From Desulfofustis limnaeus (GTDB taxonomy: Bacteria > Desulfobacterota > Desulfobulbia > Desulfobulbales > Desulfocapsaceae), in assembly GCF_023169885.1 (NCBI RefSeq), contig NZ_AP025516.1, positions 992,001 to 1,056,000 on the forward strand: a stretch of 64,000 nucleotides of DNA, written 5' to 3'. Below the pieces are notes generated by a model. It saw only the letters and a program-made list of their open reading frames with translations, was not told the origin of the DNA and made no database searches. This document shows, piece by piece, positions 21,106-49,029 of the stretch (the first letter of the stretch is position 1; each line of letters begins with the position of its first letter). The translations under genes were made by a program, and so were the position numbers.

Positions 21106-21786
21106 ATGGCCATAGAAGCGCTGATCTTCGATATGGACGGCACCCTGGTCGACTCGGAGCCCCAGCACCACCAGGCCTGGGAGCAGACCTTGATCGACCA
21201 TGGCGTTGCTTCGTTCAGCTGGGAGAAGTTTACCGCGTATATCGGCACCAGTAACGAAAAGGTGGCTGCCGATTTTATCGAGTCCGCCGCTCTGGATCTC
21301 GAGGTGGCCGAACTGGTTCGCCGTAAACAGCAGCGCTATCTGCGCTTGATTCCGCAGATTCACCTGCTGCCGGGGGTGGCCGAACTGTTGAACCGCTTTG
21401 CCGGCAACTGCCGGCTGGCGGTCGCCTCCTCTTCACATCTGCTGGAACTCGAGCGGATCCTTGCGGTCCACGGCCTCGGACAGATTTTCGCCGTGGTCCT
21501 GGGTGGGGACATGGTGGCGCGGAAAAAGCCCTATCCGGACATCTATCTGGAGGCGTCCCGGCGGCTGGGGGTGGCGCCGCACCGGTGCACTGCCTTCGAG
21601 GACTCGGCTGCCGGCGTCCTGGCGGCGAAGCGCGCCGGCATGACCGTGGTGGCCGTTCCCAACAGCTGGTCGCAGGGGCATGATTTTTCCCCGGCCGACC
21701 TGGTGATCGCACGGATCGACCAGGTCGATGCGGGGGTGTTGGGTGAACTCATCGCTCCGTGTGCACCTGCTTCCGCTCCTCGTTGA
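21106..21786 (+). CDS. HAD-family hydrolase, beta-phosphoglucomutase-like
   Basis: A 226-residue haloacid-dehalogenase-type phosphatase. Motif I is DMDGTLVDSEP with D9 and D11, motif II is VASSS, motif III is KKPYPD, and motif IV is EDSAAG. The cap arrangement is that of subfamily IA. GGAAGGAG precedes the ATG. The frame is open further upstream into the reductase gene, but those residues are not family-like. Its 3' end overlaps by 38 bp the 3' end of a small membrane-protein gene on the other strand. Confidence 0.88.
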   Translation: MAIEALIFDMDGTLVDSEPQHHQAWEQTLIDHGVASFSWEKFTAYIGTSNEKVAADFIESAALDLEVAELVRRKQQRYLRLIPQIHLLPGVAELLNRFAGNCRLAVASSSHLLELERILAVHGLGQIFAVVLGGDMVARKKPYPDIYLEASRRLGVAPHRCTAFEDSAAGVLAAKRAGMTVVAVPNSWSQGHDFSPADLVIARIDQVDAGVLGELIAPCAPASAPR

Positions 21787-22048
21787 CATAGCGGTAGAAC
21801 AGCGGGAAGGCGACGAAAAAGGCGACACAGATCAGGTATTCCACCCCTTTGATGTGGCTGTAGAAGTCGACCAGGGTGTGAAAGGGCTGAATCATCCCGG
21901 TGGCGATCATGTATTGTCGCAGCAATTCGGAGACCTGCCAGCCGGTCTGGCGTAGACCGCCAATCAGCGCGGCACAGGCCCAGACTCCGATCAATCCGCC
22001 GAAAACCAGGGAAGTGCCCAGCATAAACCGTGATGCAATTGTTTTCAT
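21749..22048 (-). CDS. Small membrane protein (99 aa)
   Basis: Unrecognised family. The sequence begins MKTIASRF and has two hydrophobic helices (about 10-32 and 70-86). GAGGAGG precedes the ATG. It is 31 bp downstream of another small gene whose product also begins MKTI and shares a (V/I)WxxAxLxxG helix, so the two look like diverged paralogues. The -24/-12 promoter at 22330 probably serves both. Confidence 0.7.
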   Translation of the reverse strand: MKTIASRFMLGTSLVFGGLIGVWACAALIGGLRQTGWQVSELLRQYMIATGMIQPFHTLVDFYSHIKGVEYLICVAFFVAFPLFYRYVNEERKQVHTER

Positions 22049-22079: not shown

Positions 22080-22277
22080 TTACATGCCGGTGATGGCGGT
22101 GACGTAGCCCCGGACCAGAGACATCAGGCCGCCGTTTAACAGGCCGCTGGCCAGACAGGCGATGCCCCAGATTCCAAGAATCAGGGCGGAGGCTGAGACA
22201 ATGGTAAACAGGAAACCGGAGACTTCGTGCTGGACATCGGTTTCGGTCCGACTCGTGGTGGTGGTGATGGTTTTCAT
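22080..22277 (-). CDS. Small membrane protein (65 aa)
   Basis: A 65-residue protein beginning MKTITTTT with a Thr-rich soluble N-terminus and one long hydrophobic segment (about 25-48, ALILGIWGIACLASG). GAGGAGG precedes this ATG; the frame is open further upstream but lacks a start signal there. It is the first gene after a sigma-54-like promoter 53 bp upstream. No function is recognisable. Confidence 0.7.
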   Translation of the reverse strand: MKTITTTTSRTETDVQHEVSGFLFTIVSASALILGIWGIACLASGLLNGGLMSLVRGYVTAITGM

Positions 22278-22329
22278 GGCGTCCTCCTCTGTGCGGGTGG
22301 TGGCTGATAAGCTCCTTTGCCTTGATAAT

Positions 22330-22345
22330 TGCACCAATGATGCCA
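22330..22345 (-). promoter_or_regulatory. Sigma-54 promoter for the small membrane-protein genes
   Basis: On the minus strand TGGCATCATTGGTGCA matches TGGCAC-N5-TTGCA at nine of eleven defined positions, with GG and GC at the required 12-bp spacing. It lies 53 bp before the 65-aa gene. Confidence 0.72.
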
Positions 22346-22593
22346 GAAGAGATTTTTTACGACTTTCTCTGTACCCTTTCAATATATTGAATTAACGAGA
22401 TAAATGAGGTTTTCTCGGGGGTTTTTTCCGGGACACCCCGGCAGCTGTCGCCGTTGCTACAGCACTGTGGCAGAACAGAGCTAAGGTGTGGCGTCGGATG
22501 CGACAAAACTGTCGGATACTCTGGTAGATAGACTCTGAGTGGAGTGCTCTCTACGGAGGTGATCGCCCGCTCAGGGCAGACCCTTGAACACGG

Positions 22594-22633: not shown

Positions 22634-23884
22634 TCAGGCCTGTTTCCAGCTGAAAACGACCGGCAGCCGGTAGAGGACAAAGCGGTAGACGATGAAGTAG
22701 AAGGCCAGCACGGTGAATACTATCCACGTTTCCTGCCAGGTGGGAATCTCCTGGTAGGTCTGCCAGTTGTACGTGACCAGCACCGTGTTGAGCCGGTTCC
22801 AGATGATGCCGGCCACGGCCACGGCGGCGCCGAAGCGGAGGATGGCCGGGCGCTGATGGTGTACCCCCCAGGCAAACAGGAGCATCGGCAGCACCACGCC
22901 GATCCCCAACTCGAGCAGGTAATAGGCGCCCCATCCGGTGATCAGGTACTGCCACTCCTGGTCATGGGCTACGGCCACCAGTTTGATCACCAGGTAGGTG
23001 ATCATGGCGTAGGCGGAGCCTTTGGCGAGCCCGATGGTGATCCGGTCCAGGTTGTCGAGAAAGCGCTGGTCGCAGCGCCAAACCATGAAGTGCTTGAGCA
23101 GGGTGGAGACGATGATGACCATGCACAGACCGGCGAAAATGGAAGAGCAGAAGAAGTGGATCCACTGGAACTCGGGGGAGATCCAGAGCGGATGGATCTT
23201 GGCCGGGGCGTAGCAGAACAGGGCCCCGAGCGCGCCCTGGTGCAGCGTCGAAAGAATGATGCCGGCGATCGTCAGGCCGAGGGCGATGCTTTTGATCCAG
23301 CGCTTCGCCGCCGGCCAGCCGATTCATTCGGAAAAGGCCGGGACCATCTCGGCGATCTGCACCGACAGGTAGGTCGCCACATGCCAGGCGACCAGGAAGA
23401 GCACCGCCGCCGGCCCGAAAGAGACCAGCATCGGGTAGGTGAGGCGCCAGGGCATACCCAGGTCGACGAGCAGGTAGATGACGGCGAAGAAATAACCGAG
23501 CAGCCCATTGAGCAGGGCGAGCCGCTCGATGGGCAGGAAATCTTTGCGGTGGAAGATCTCGACGGTGGTACTGAGCAGGAACCCCGACGCCGACAGGGGC
23601 ACCATACCGAACAGGCCGAAGCCGAGCAGGAGTCCCCAGGGGTAATCCTGCGAGCCGTGGGTGACCGCGGCCAGCCCGAAGAGATAGCGCTGGCCGAGCA
23701 GCGGCAGGCCGATCAGCAGGATGACGGCCAGCACCCAATTCATCGGGTTGCGAAGCAGTTGGGCCAGGTAGGCGGAACCGGACAGGCCGAGCAGCAGCTT
23801 CTCCTTGAGCGGCCATACTGAGCCGTGCTCTGCGCGGCTGCCGTCGATCGGCAGACCCGCTCTCTCATTGACCAGTGTTTTCAT
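22634..23884 (-). CDS. HybB/NrfD-family membrane subunit with in-frame TGA
   Basis: A polytopic quinone-interacting subunit of the HybB/NrfD family, about 416 codons and about ten hydrophobic segments. The frame is continuous except for a TGA at 23324-23326, about codon 187. Family-like sequence continues on both sides: EMVPAFSE before it, and IGWPAAKRW then STLHQGALGALF and KIHPLW after it. Relatives have Trp or Arg at this place, so a nonsense mutation or base-call error is likeliest; selenocysteine or readthrough is possible. GGGAGG precedes the ATG, which overlaps the HybA-like gene by 20 bp. Confidence 0.8.
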
Positions 23885-24815
23885 TGGGTTCCTCCCGGTC
23901 AGCTGGTTGTTCATCGGGGTTGTTCCGACCCCGGCCGGCAAGCAGGTGAAAACCGGCAAAGAGCGCGGGCCAGATGGTCAGGACCATCGGCACGATGGCG
24001 AGAAAATCCTTCACATAGGTGAGTATCGGCTGTTTCGGCACCCTCATGTCGAATCCGGCCTCTTCGTGCGGAACACTGGAGAGATAGAGCCAGGCGGTAC
24101 CTCCCGCCTCATGCTCACCATAGATGTGGTTGACGTAGCGGTCGGGTCGCTCCCTGATCCGCGTACGACCGACGCGCAGCAGCGTCTCCCGCTCGCCGAA
24201 GGTGAGGGCCTGGGTCGGGCAGGCCTCCACACAGGCCGGCGGTAATCCCTTCACCAGACGGGTGTCGTGGCAGAAGATGCACTTCATGATGCGCGGGTGA
24301 AAGGCGCTTGCATAGTGAAAAGCCGGTATGGAAAAGGGACAGGCGATCATGCAGGTCCGGCAGCCGACGCAGACATCGGCATCGTAGATGACCGCACCTT
24401 CCGGGGTCTTGGTGTAGGCGTTGACGAAGCAGGCGGTCAAGCAGGCCGGTTCCAGGCAATGGTTGCACTGGATCTTGCGAAACAGGGGGTGCTCGAGCTG
24501 CGGCAGCTCGTAGCGGTTGACCACGGTGTAGGCGGTGTCGTCGGGTCGCCGCCGCCGGCCGTGTTCGTCGAGATCGAAGACCGAAGGGTCGGTAAACGAG
24601 CGGTCCGGTTCCGGCAGGTGCTGCTCCTGGTTGCAGGCCTCCTCGCAGCTGCGGCAGCCGATGCACCGGGTCAGATCGACGAGAACGCCCTTGCTCTTTT
24701 CGTAGCCGCTGAAATCACGGGCCGGCGCCGTCTGGGCACGACCGGTGAGCAGCGCCGTGCCGAAGGCCGCCAGGCCGGTTCTCAGGAACCTTCTGCGGGA
24801 CAGCGTACCGTTCAT
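23865..24815 (-). CDS. HybA-like periplasmic 4Fe-4S ferredoxin subunit
   Basis: An electron-transfer subunit, 316 residues. A Tat signal (SRRRFLRT at residues 5-12) leads into four cysteine clusters: CIGCRSCEEAC, CNHCLEPAC, CVGCRTCMIAC and CIFCHDTR, enough for four 4Fe-4S centres. A single hydrophobic helix near 270-292 anchors the C-terminus, as in HybA/HmcB. AAGGAGGG precedes the ATG. It lies between a multihaem cytochrome and a HybB-like subunit, so together they look like a quinone/cytochrome-linked complex. Confidence 0.9.
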   Translation of the reverse strand: MNGTLSRRRFLRTGLAAFGTALLTGRAQTAPARDFSGYEKSKGVLVDLTRCIGCRSCEEACNQEQHLPEPDRSFTDPSVFDLDEHGRRRRPDDTAYTVVNRYELPQLEHPLFRKIQCNHCLEPACLTACFVNAYTKTPEGAVIYDADVCVGCRTCMIACPFSIPAFHYASAFHPRIMKCIFCHDTRLVKGLPPACVEACPTQALTFGERETLLRVGRTRIRERPDRYVNHIYGEHEAGGTAWLYLSSVPHEEAGFDMRVPKQPILTYVKDFLAIVPMVLTIWPALFAGFHLLAGRGRNNPDEQPADREEPNENTGQ

Positions 24816-24832
24816 GGCGGAATCCCTCCTTT

Positions 24833-25294
24833 TCAAGGTTGGCGTTGGTGGCAATCCAGGCAGCCGGTCGGGCCGCCGATCGCCTCGTGACAGGCAAGAC
24901 AGTTCAAGTGATAGGCACCCTGCAGCCCCGGCAGATCGATATGATAGCTGGTGTCGACCGCCTGGCGGGCGATTCGGTCTTCGCTGAAGGGCTGGGCCGG
25001 GTGGCAGCTAGCGCATGACACCGATCCCGCCTGAGAGCCCGCCGAGTGGCAGCGGCTGCAGGCCGGATCGGTCGCTGCGTCGCCGGTGGTGTGATGATGA
25101 CATGCACTGCAGGCAGCGTAAGCGGCGTGCAACCGGTGGTCGAAGGTGACGGTGGCGTAACGGTTGCTCAAGACGTCGATAACCACGGTTTCCGGCGGGT
25201 CGTCAGCGCCGGCGGCAGCAGTGCCGGGCCCCTGCAGGGCACCAGTTGCGGCGACGGTCAGGGTGCAAAGAAACGTCAGGGTTCGGGGGGTCAT
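24833..25294 (-). CDS. Pentahaem class III-type cytochrome c
   Basis: A secreted 153-residue cytochrome. A signal peptide (about 1-28) is followed by five CxxCH motifs: CSACH, CSRCH, CASCH, CLACH and CLDCH, in the c7/c3 style with extra His residues as distal ligands. It should pass electrons in the periplasm to or from the HybA-like subunit encoded 17 bp downstream. AAGGAG precedes the ATG, and the gene begins 15 bp after ftsH. Confidence 0.9.
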   Translation of the reverse strand: MTPRTLTFLCTLTVAATGALQGPGTAAAGADDPPETVVIDVLSNRYATVTFDHRLHAAYAACSACHHHTTGDAATDPACSRCHSAGSQAGSVSCASCHPAQPFSEDRIARQAVDTSYHIDLPGLQGAYHLNCLACHEAIGGPTGCLDCHQRQP

Positions 25295-25309: not shown

Positions 25310-27121
25310 TTAGGTGGGGACGATAGCCCATTTCTTTTGTTCTTCCCGGTGATGGTTCAGATAGCAGCGGTGGATGATGTCCACCTCCTCATGATCCAAG
25401 GTCTCCTGCACCAGCAGCGCCTCGGCAAGCATATGGAGAAAGGTGCTGTTTTTTTCCAGCAGGTCCTTTGCCTCCTGATAGCAGGTCTGGACGATCGTCC
25501 GTATCTCCATGTCGACCTCACGCCTCGTTTGTTCGCTGCGTCGCCAGGTGAAGCCGTCGCCGTCGGGCTGGTCGGTCGCATCGGAACAGGCCAGCGGCCC
25601 GATCTGGCTGCTCATCCCGAAATGACAGACAAGGCGGTAGGCGATCCGGCTCACCGTCTGCAGGTCGTTGCTGGCGCCGGTACTCAGCTGGCCGAACACC
25701 AGTTCCTCGGCCAGTCGGCCGCCGAGCAGGATCTTGATGCGGTTGACCAGATAGGTGCGCGAATAGGTGAGCTGCTCGTCGAAGGGCAGTTGCTGGGTGA
25801 GCCCGAGGGCTTGGCCGCGGGGGATGATGGTGATCTTGTGCAGCGGGTCGGTCTCCGGCAGCATGATGGCCAGCACCGCGTGGCCGGCTTCATGATAGGC
25901 GGTCAACCGCCGGGCCTTTTCGCTGATCACCACACTCTTGCGCTCCAGGCCCATGATGATCTTGTCCTTGGCCTCTTCGAAATCGGTCAGATCGACCATG
26001 GTTTTGCCCTTGCGCGCCGCCAGCAGCGCCGCTTCGTTGACCAGGTTGGCCAATTCGGCGCCGCTGAACCCGGGGGTGCCTTTGGCGATCACCGAGAAAT
26101 CGACACTGCTGCCGATGGCCACATGGCCGCTATGCACCTCGAGGATCTTCTGCCGGCCCCTGATATCGGGCAGGGTCAGGGTGATCCTGCGGTCGAAGCG
26201 GCCTGGCCTGAGCAGGGCTGAATCGAGAATATCCGGGCGATTGGTGGCGGCGACGACGATCACCGTTTCATGCGAGGTGAAGCCGTCCATTTCCACCAGC
26301 AGCGCGTTGAGCGTCTGCTCCCGCTCGTCGTTGGAACCACTGCGGTACTGGGCGGCTCGCTTACCGCCGATGGCATCGATCTCGTCGATGAAGATGATGC
26401 AGGGCGCGTGCTTTTTCGCCTCGCCGAAGAGTTCCCGGACGCGGGAGGCGCCAAGCCCGGCGAACATCTCGACAAAATCGGACCCCCCAAGCGAATAGAA
26501 GGGGACCGACGCCTCCCCGGCGATCGCCTTGGCCAGCATGGTCTTGCCGGTTCCGGGCGGGCCCTGCAGCAGAACGCCTTTGGGGATGCGGCCGCCAAGG
26601 GCGCCGAATTTAGCCGGGTCTCTGAGAAAGGCGGTGATCTCTTGGAGTTCTTCACGCGCTTCGGAGATGCCGGCCACATCTTCGAACGAGACGCGGGGCA
26701 GGTTATGCCGGTTGCGCTGGTAGGTCTTGGTGCGGGCGAATTGTAGCGACTGGCGTGACTTTCTGGTGCCGAAGATCATCCAGCCGCCCAGGATCAGCAG
26801 GACCAGCAGCAGGTCACGGATGAAGCCACTGCTCTGGGATGACGGTTTGGTGATGATTTCGACCTCATGCCGGCGCAGCAGCGGCAACAGGGTGGACAGA
26901 TCGGGGGCGTAGGTGGTGAAGCGGCGGTCTTCGCTATCGGTGCCGGTGATGACGCCGTCCGTGATAATCACCTGGACGATGTCGCCGTCGGTCAGATCAT
27001 CGAGAAAGGTACTGTAGGATCGCTCCGGCAGACGGGAGCTGATCTGATACATGTTATAGCCGATGAACAGCAGGATGGCGCCGAGCCCTATCCAGAGAAG
27101 GCCGCGAAACGGTATGCTCAT
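25310..27121 (-). CDS. ftsH: ATP-dependent zinc metalloprotease FtsH
   Basis: A membrane AAA+ protease of 603 residues. Two membrane segments (about 7-25 and 102-118) flank a small periplasmic domain. Walker A is GPPGTGKT at 187-194, the pore segment is FVEMFAG, and the zinc motif HEAGH lies near 410 with the third ligand in SNDLQTV. The start ATG overlaps the stop of the upstream IS1595-like gene (ATGA). Being inside a cytochrome operon, it is probably a specialised paralogue of the housekeeping FtsH. Confidence 0.93.
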
Positions 27122-27981
27122 GACTGGCCTCCTGCCCGGCAGGCCTCGGGCGATCTTCTCCGCAAACCGCCGGGAGGAGGCAGCAGCAGGGCCTTGACCA
27201 GTTGCTCGAAGCGTGTGCCCCGGTCGCTCAAGCGAGCGTTGGACTGAAAGCAGAAGTCGTCGAGATGTTCCTGCAACCGCGCCGCTGTCATTTTTGGTCC
27301 CAGCCGGTTGGAAAATGACCCGAGACAGTCATCGATGGCCTCGTTCGCCCGCTCTTGCCGGAGACAGCGGGGCTCCTGCAGGTAGAGTCGGCCGGGACTT
27401 GAATTGAGAAGAAATTCCGGTCGGTCCGGGGTCAGGATGGTGCTGCCCGGTTCGCTGCACCGTTCGATGAAGCCAAGCAGCACGTCGGCGGCCAGGGTCG
27501 AGTGCTGAGCCATGCTCACCCGGCCGTGGAACCGGAGCTTCGGCTCCACTTCCACGGCCGCCAGCAGGTAGCGGCCGCTTGCTGGGGCGACTCCGAAACG
27601 GATAAAACGGCTATCGATTTCGATGGACCCGGCGCAGCGTTTCCGGTTGGTCCGTTTCATGGCCAGACGAAGGATCTTCAGCCACTTCCAGGCGCTCTGA
27701 TAGCTGTTGATATGAAATTGGTGCTGCAACCGTTTGGCGCTCAGAGCCTCCTGCGGACCAGGCCATCCGCAGCCACGTGGAGGGCGGTTTTTTGGTGCCG
27801 TGCAGCAGCGGCAGGTAATGGTGGCCTGGGGTTTTCTTCTCCCGCCGGAGAGGCCGCAATAGGGGCAGATGAAGTCGCTGGGCCAGCGTAGCTGAAAGAG
27901 ATAGCGGACACACCAGGTCTCGTCCCTTAACAGGGTGGCTGCCTGGTCGTCGTGATGCGGTAGGGGCATGGCTTCGTTCAT
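27118..27981 (-). CDS. Relict IS1595-type transposase-like protein
   Basis: A 287-residue protein resembling IS1595/ISXO2 transposases. It has the N-terminal zinc ribbon (RWPSDFICPYCG then CRCC), the ALSAKRLQ...SYQSAWKWL region and a C-terminal EHLDDFCFQSNAR stretch. The first catalytic segment reads IEIDS where active elements have VEVDE. Between CRCC and ALSAKRL the family sequence (LLHGTKKPPSTWLRMAW) appears in the +1 frame, so two compensating indels have occurred. No terminal repeats are seen. GGAGGGA precedes the ATG and the stop overlaps the ftsH start, so it is still translated as the first gene of this operon. Confidence 0.72.
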   Translation of the reverse strand: MNEAMPLPHHDDQAATLLRDETWCVRYLFQLRWPSDFICPYCGLSGGRRKPQATITCRCCTAPKNRPPRGCGWPGPQEALSAKRLQHQFHINSYQSAWKWLKILRLAMKRTNRKRCAGSIEIDSRFIRFGVAPASGRYLLAAVEVEPKLRFHGRVSMAQHSTLAADVLLGFIERCSEPGSTILTPDRPEFLLNSSPGRLYLQEPRCLRQERANEAIDDCLGSFSNRLGPKMTAARLQEHLDDFCFQSNARLSDRGTRFEQLVKALLLPPPGGLRRRSPEACRAGGQS

Positions 27982-28034
27982 CTGTTTCCCTCCGTGCTGT
28001 CGGGCGCTGCGAACGACGGTAGTACTGGGAGCTG

Positions 28035-28050
28035 TGCATATACAATGCCC
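28035..28050 (-). promoter_or_regulatory. Sigma-54 promoter of the ftsH-cytochrome-hybAB operon
   Basis: On the minus strand GGGCATTGTATATGCA has GGCA at -24 and TGCA at -12 with correct spacing. It lies 53 bp before the first gene and about 160-200 bp downstream of the dyad cluster, the usual arrangement for an NtrC-type activator. Confidence 0.65.
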
Positions 28051-28204
28051 ATGTGGTTGTTTTGCAGGCTCTTTCCTCGGCGCCGCAGAGCAGGGGATAA
28101 TTGCTCGGATTATCCATGAAAATGGGGAGCGGTGGGGGCGTCTTCGGAAAACCTGCCCCGGTCGTGACGAGCAACGGCAACGCCGTCGCGGCCGACGGAC
28201 GGGC

Positions 28205-28260
28205 TGTCGCCACACTTGTGTGGCAGGCATGCGACACAAGTGTGGCGACACAGGTGTGTC
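28205..28260. promoter_or_regulatory. Activator binding cluster (three ACAC-N2-GTGT dyads)
   Basis: Three dyads adjoin: CCACACTTGTGTGG (28210-28223), ACACAAGTGT (28234-28243) and GACACAGGTGTGTC (28247-28260). The first two also form a 17-bp perfect inverted repeat (arms TGTCGCCACACTTGTGT) with a 12-bp spacer. Such clustered dyads are typical enhancer sites for Fis-type sigma-54 activators; the gene for one ends 13 bp away. Confidence 0.75.
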
Positions 28261-48789: not shown

Positions 48790-48800
48790 CGTGTGGGGGT

Positions 48801-48924
48801 GGGGATGTGGAGTGGAATCAGATACAGGTGATATTCATGGATCGGCGATGGATGATCCAGCAACAGGTGCTTCCAGACGGCGTACAATCACTGACAGCTG
48901 ATGAACCAACCACTCCACATCCCC
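48801..48924. repeat. 15-bp inverted repeat flanking 94 bp
   Basis: GGGGATGTGGAGTGG (48801-48815) is repeated as its exact complement at 48910-48924. The enclosed 94 bp has no gene. Confidence 0.6.
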
Positions 48925-49029
48925 AGGGGGGCTTATCGCAGATCGGATCGAGACGATCCGATTGCATCTGAACGGCCAGGCGGGGATTCAACCCGGTCCA
49001 GGCCAATCATCGTTGAGAAAGATCTACGG

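Follow-up and report, generated by a model that had tools for sequence, protein, structure and literature searches.

In-frame TGA at an otherwise invariant tryptophan codon of an HmcC/NrfD-like gene in Desulfofustis limnaeus

The locus described here lies in a 64,000-nucleotide stretch (hereafter, the window) of the genome of the sulfate reducer Desulfofustis limnaeus. The genome is 4.23 Mb in one contig, and Desulfofustis glycolicus DSM 9705 is the sole relative of the same genus in the comparisons. An HmcC/NrfD-like integral membrane subunit gene is found on the minus strand at 22634–23884. Upstream of it in the operon is an intact gene for an HmcB/HybA-like periplasmic iron–sulfur subunit (23865–24854, minus strand), and an intact gene for a class III multiheme cytochrome c of 153 amino acids is located at 24833–25294 on the same strand. 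Two further minus-strand open frames lie downstream of the HmcC-like gene, a small one at 22080–22382 (62% identity to D. glycolicus) with no family match, and one at 21752–22048 (86% identity to D. glycolicus) that is weakly HmcD-like, scoring 23.3 bits against a cut-off of 34. The gene order around the HmcC-like gene is intact.

The arrangement resembles the HmcC, NhcC, and HybB systems, in which a multi-helix, quinone-interacting membrane subunit of the NrfD type is encoded beside a four-cluster iron–sulfur subunit and a multiheme cytochrome (PMC8076601). It differs from them in that the cytochrome partner has only 153 residues, all matches fall below the NCBIfam equivalog cut-offs, and the membrane subunit gene is interrupted. 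The HmcB model gives 381.7 bits for the HmcB/HybA-like gene (cut-off, 420). The HmcC model aligns with residues 46–412 of the read-through product of the HmcC-like gene at 325.8 bits (equivalog cut-off, 550), and the short cytochrome stands where a hexadecaheme HmcA would be in a true Hmc complex. The locus is an Hmc/Nhc-like module and not a true Hmc complex. The read-through product also matches the HybB-type family PRK10881 (158.3 bits, under the curated cut-off), and its match to NrfD/HmcC-like membrane subunits extends over the full length.

The interruption is an in-frame TGA at codon 187 (23324–23326, minus strand; TCA on the plus strand). The frame consists of an ATG start, 186 codons up to the TGA, 229 codons after it, and a TGA terminator as codon 417, giving 416 sense codons on read-through. 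The initial annotation had placed the TGA at this position in a HybB/NrfD-like gene free of frameshifts within an intact operon, and this description holds in full, as a single continuous tblastn alignment to D. glycolicus covers residues 1–415 at 88% identity. Both halves are collinear with more than 40 orthologs, which excludes a chance open frame. By hydropathy, the read-through product has about 10 membrane segments, and the TGA falls after the fourth of them. Subunits of the NrfD type contain 8 to 10 helices, which form two bundles of four, and the quinone site belongs to the first bundle (PMC8076601). The HmcC/NrfD-like gene is present in a single copy in the source genome.

Codon 187 is TGG (Trp) in all 46 orthologs from other species and genera, including that of D. 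glycolicus. The set comprises 29 orthologs of the same family and 17 further ones, among them Desulfuromonadales relatives at 61–65% identity. Four distant paralogs (29–37% identity) carry TGG in two cases, CGC (Arg) in one, and AAG (Lys) in one. The initial annotation had given Trp or Arg for relatives and proposed TGG or CGA as the ancestral codon. Trp and TGG stand in every ortholog, while Arg is confined to the one paralog and is encoded there by CGC, leaving CGA without a counterpart. It had also named a TGA conserved in relatives as the observation that would support recoding, and this comparison turned out negative. On this alignment, the TGA is private to the source genome and no family trait, and would have arisen from TGG by a single G-to-A transition, which supports the point change preferred in the initial annotation and narrows it to TGG.

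The regions on the two sides of the TGA are similarly constrained. The dN/dS values against D. glycolicus are 0.090 before the TGA (186 codons) and 0.083 after it (229 codons), and those of the neighboring genes are higher (0.134 for the HybA-like gene and 0.164 for the cytochrome gene). The lack of decay in the second half implies that the change is recent, that it is a sequence error, or that the codon is read through. Meanwhile, 40 of the 93 genomes of the family give no match to the HmcC-like gene. The ortholog in a further genome, G069 (G069:C1:483400-485400), is broken: a TAG stands at alignment position 235, and its two alignments overlap in different frames. The absence from 40 genomes together with this broken copy suggests that loss of the gene is tolerated in the family.

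Functional readthrough of the UGA as Trp, either regulated or constitutive, would leave the gene in effect intact. Insertion by tRNA-Trp would restore the ancestral residue, the constraint kept on both sides would be explained, and the base following the stop is A; UGA-A is a leaky stop context. Decoding of UGA at a Trp position is known from tRNA-Trp variants, and a tRNA-Trp with a 4-bp anticodon stem reads UGA (PMC13092985). Contrarily, the single tRNA-Trp of the source genome has anticodon CCA and G24, with the usual 5 bp in its anticodon stem, and is neither of the 4-bp-stem type (PMC13092985) nor a Hirsh-type suppressor. No suppressor tRNA is found among the 42 tRNA genes detected, in which the sole tRNA with a UCA anticodon is tRNA-Sec. 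RF2 is present, and UGA serves as a regular terminator, including that of the gene itself. The source genome thus shows no tRNA-Trp suited to UGA (anticodon UCA, or CCA on a 4-bp stem) and has given up neither RF2 nor TGA as a terminator. All 18 other Trp codons in the gene are TGG, and relatives do not share the TGA. These observations make functional readthrough improbable.

A division of the gene into two proteins, the second starting past the TGA, would agree with the conservation of both halves. However, the first in-frame ATG, GTG, or TTG past the TGA is codon 255, which is 68 codons on and inside a membrane helix. The ATG overlapping the TGA (ATGA) opens a different frame without family coding, and no relative is split at this position. 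We regard such a split as next to impossible.

Selenocysteine is the remaining way in which the UGA could be decoded, and the source genome encodes the machinery for it. A tRNA-Sec (72.5 bits, anticodon TCA), selB, and selD are found, along with several formate-dehydrogenase-like genes with in-frame TGA. Sec decoding is therefore possible in the source cell. Two selD genes, themselves with in-frame TGA, are located at G000:C1:281600-282523 and 929270-930196 of the source genome, and a TusA/YedF-like gene comes after the second. The check for selA–selD and tRNA-Sec proposed in the initial annotation thus gives all of these except selA, which is not found in searches that are blind to its expected place. 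This place, judged from synteny with D. glycolicus, is exactly a 5-kb block of N (G000:C1:1947501-1952500) next to a gene at 1945498-1947495. A true lack of selA, or an unusual Sec pathway, is accordingly rejected, the absence being a masking artifact. A weak SelA match at G000:924341 belongs instead to a cystathionine gamma-synthase-like enzyme. Another genome, G023 (two contigs, approximately 100% complete), likewise yields no selA despite having selB, selD, and formate dehydrogenase genes with in-frame TGA, and selA may be masked there as well.

A GC-rich hairpin of approximately 14 pairs with an 8-nt apical loop lies downstream of the TGA (23275–23316, minus strand). The small hairpin mentioned in the initial annotation is therefore real in the source sequence; it is neither conserved in relatives nor discriminating. 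It has a folding energy of −24.8 kcal/mol (z −2.05). The hairpin formally satisfies loose bSECIS rules, but so do 190 of 637 ordinary TGG sites (30%) in the same genome, though just 2.5% of these have folds as stable. The D. glycolicus ortholog has no counterpart. Non-conservation and the control sites together reject it as a SECIS, and Rfam gives no match at the TGA site. The hairpins compared at the Sec codons of one selD copy and of two FdhN-type formate dehydrogenases all carry a GGN loop of 3 nt above a strong stem, unlike the 8-nt apical loop and 3-bp top stem seen here.

Recoding of the UGA as Sec through SelB and this hairpin would be in keeping with the machinery and with the formal fit of the fold. 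Nevertheless, every ortholog has Trp at codon 187, including those of relatives possessing Sec machinery, and neither a TGA nor an alternation with Cys is seen among the 46. The codon specifies neither a cysteine nor a redox residue, and no conserved SECIS structure follows it. The formate dehydrogenase and SelD selenoproteins of the source genome share with the HmcC-like gene an in-frame TGA in a genome with SelB, SelD, and tRNA-Sec, but their TGA recurs in relatives or replaces a catalytic Cys, whereas that at codon 187 occurs in a single genome, where the orthologs invariably have Trp. A text search of the literature gave nothing relevant linking NrfD or HybB to selenoproteins. The view in the initial annotation that Sec is not expected here is borne out, and we consider Sec insertion very improbable. 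Taking Trp and Sec together, strain-specific decoding of the UGA often enough to keep the subunit working is hardly to be expected.

A practical caution follows from this case. An automatic screen for in-frame TGA in a Sec-using genome would list the HmcC-like gene as a selenoprotein candidate, which comparison with relatives rejects. A codon-usage scan for interrupted genes over approximately 400 kb of the source genome recovers several known Sec sites together with the TGA at codon 187; most of its other matches look like adjacent genes sharing a frame, while a few are ambiguous.

We favor a recent and real nonsense mutation, TGG to TGA, at the Trp187 codon, with a probability of roughly 0.6. 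The sole difference from TGG is one base, and a transition. The dispensability of the gene in the family, as seen in the genomes without a match and the broken G069 copy, counts for this reading. The main competitor is a consensus error in sequencing or polishing, with TGG as the true codon and an intact gene, and it predicts the same picture, the absence of decay included. It would account for a TGA in one genome only, for two halves without decay, and for an otherwise intact operon whose membrane subunit gene has no second copy in the genome. Moreover, with TGG the site reads GGATC, overlapping the GATC methylation motif, at which some long-read base callers may err. On the other side, the assembly looks accurate, being one contig in which approximately 45 syntenic genes run uninterrupted over 64 kb, and the lack of other broken genes in the window argues against poor assembly. 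No homopolymer runs through the site, and one base is replaced with none gained or lost, whereas long-read errors are typically indels. A consensus error is thus a serious though clearly less probable explanation. Readthrough, for its part, would likewise give the low dN/dS downstream, which is a point against the nonsense mutation.

If the nonsense mutation is real, a single G-to-A transition would have converted the Trp187 codon of the HmcC/NrfD-like gene in this strain, and RF2 would terminate translation at codon 187. The resulting 186-residue fragment would hold about four of the ten membrane helices and lack the second bundle. Such a truncated product is expected to be non-functional, and the subunit of the complex would be lost or greatly reduced. 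At most, ordinary tRNA-Trp might misread the UGA at a low level to give traces of the normal protein. We infer both the reality of the base and this phenotype. One periplasmic electron-entry complex of the strain would then be absent or diminished, a matter for the metabolism of this strain and of no wider bearing. The case shares with nonsense mutations and recent pseudogenes in bacteria a one-base stop in a constrained gene, private to one genome, and a gene often absent in relatives, and no difference from them is seen. Most simply, the TGA at codon 187 reflects a recent single-base change or an error in the sequence, without any novel use of the genetic code.

Across the approximately 45 genes aligned with the syntenic D. 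glycolicus contig, the TGA is the sole stop to interrupt a clear coding region. The remaining stops listed fall in leader extensions, at the ends of weak alignments, and, in one instance, in a conserved non-coding element. Two other features of the window should be mentioned. An open frame at 27118–28251 adjoins an FtsH gene, and a frame with 47% identity occupies the syntenic place in D. glycolicus; judged by its sequence alone, the open frame resembles a zinc-ribbon transposase of the IS1595 type. An intergenic element at 48795–48946 has perfect inverted ends of approximately 15 bp (GGGGATGTGGAGTGG / CCACTCCACATCCCC) and gives no Rfam match at the gathering threshold. Over 171 bp it shares 94% identity with D. 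glycolicus (G026:C50:45095-45264), above the identity of the flanking proteins, and it folds to −55.7 kcal/mol. The element is possibly an uncatalogued structured RNA or a mobile element.
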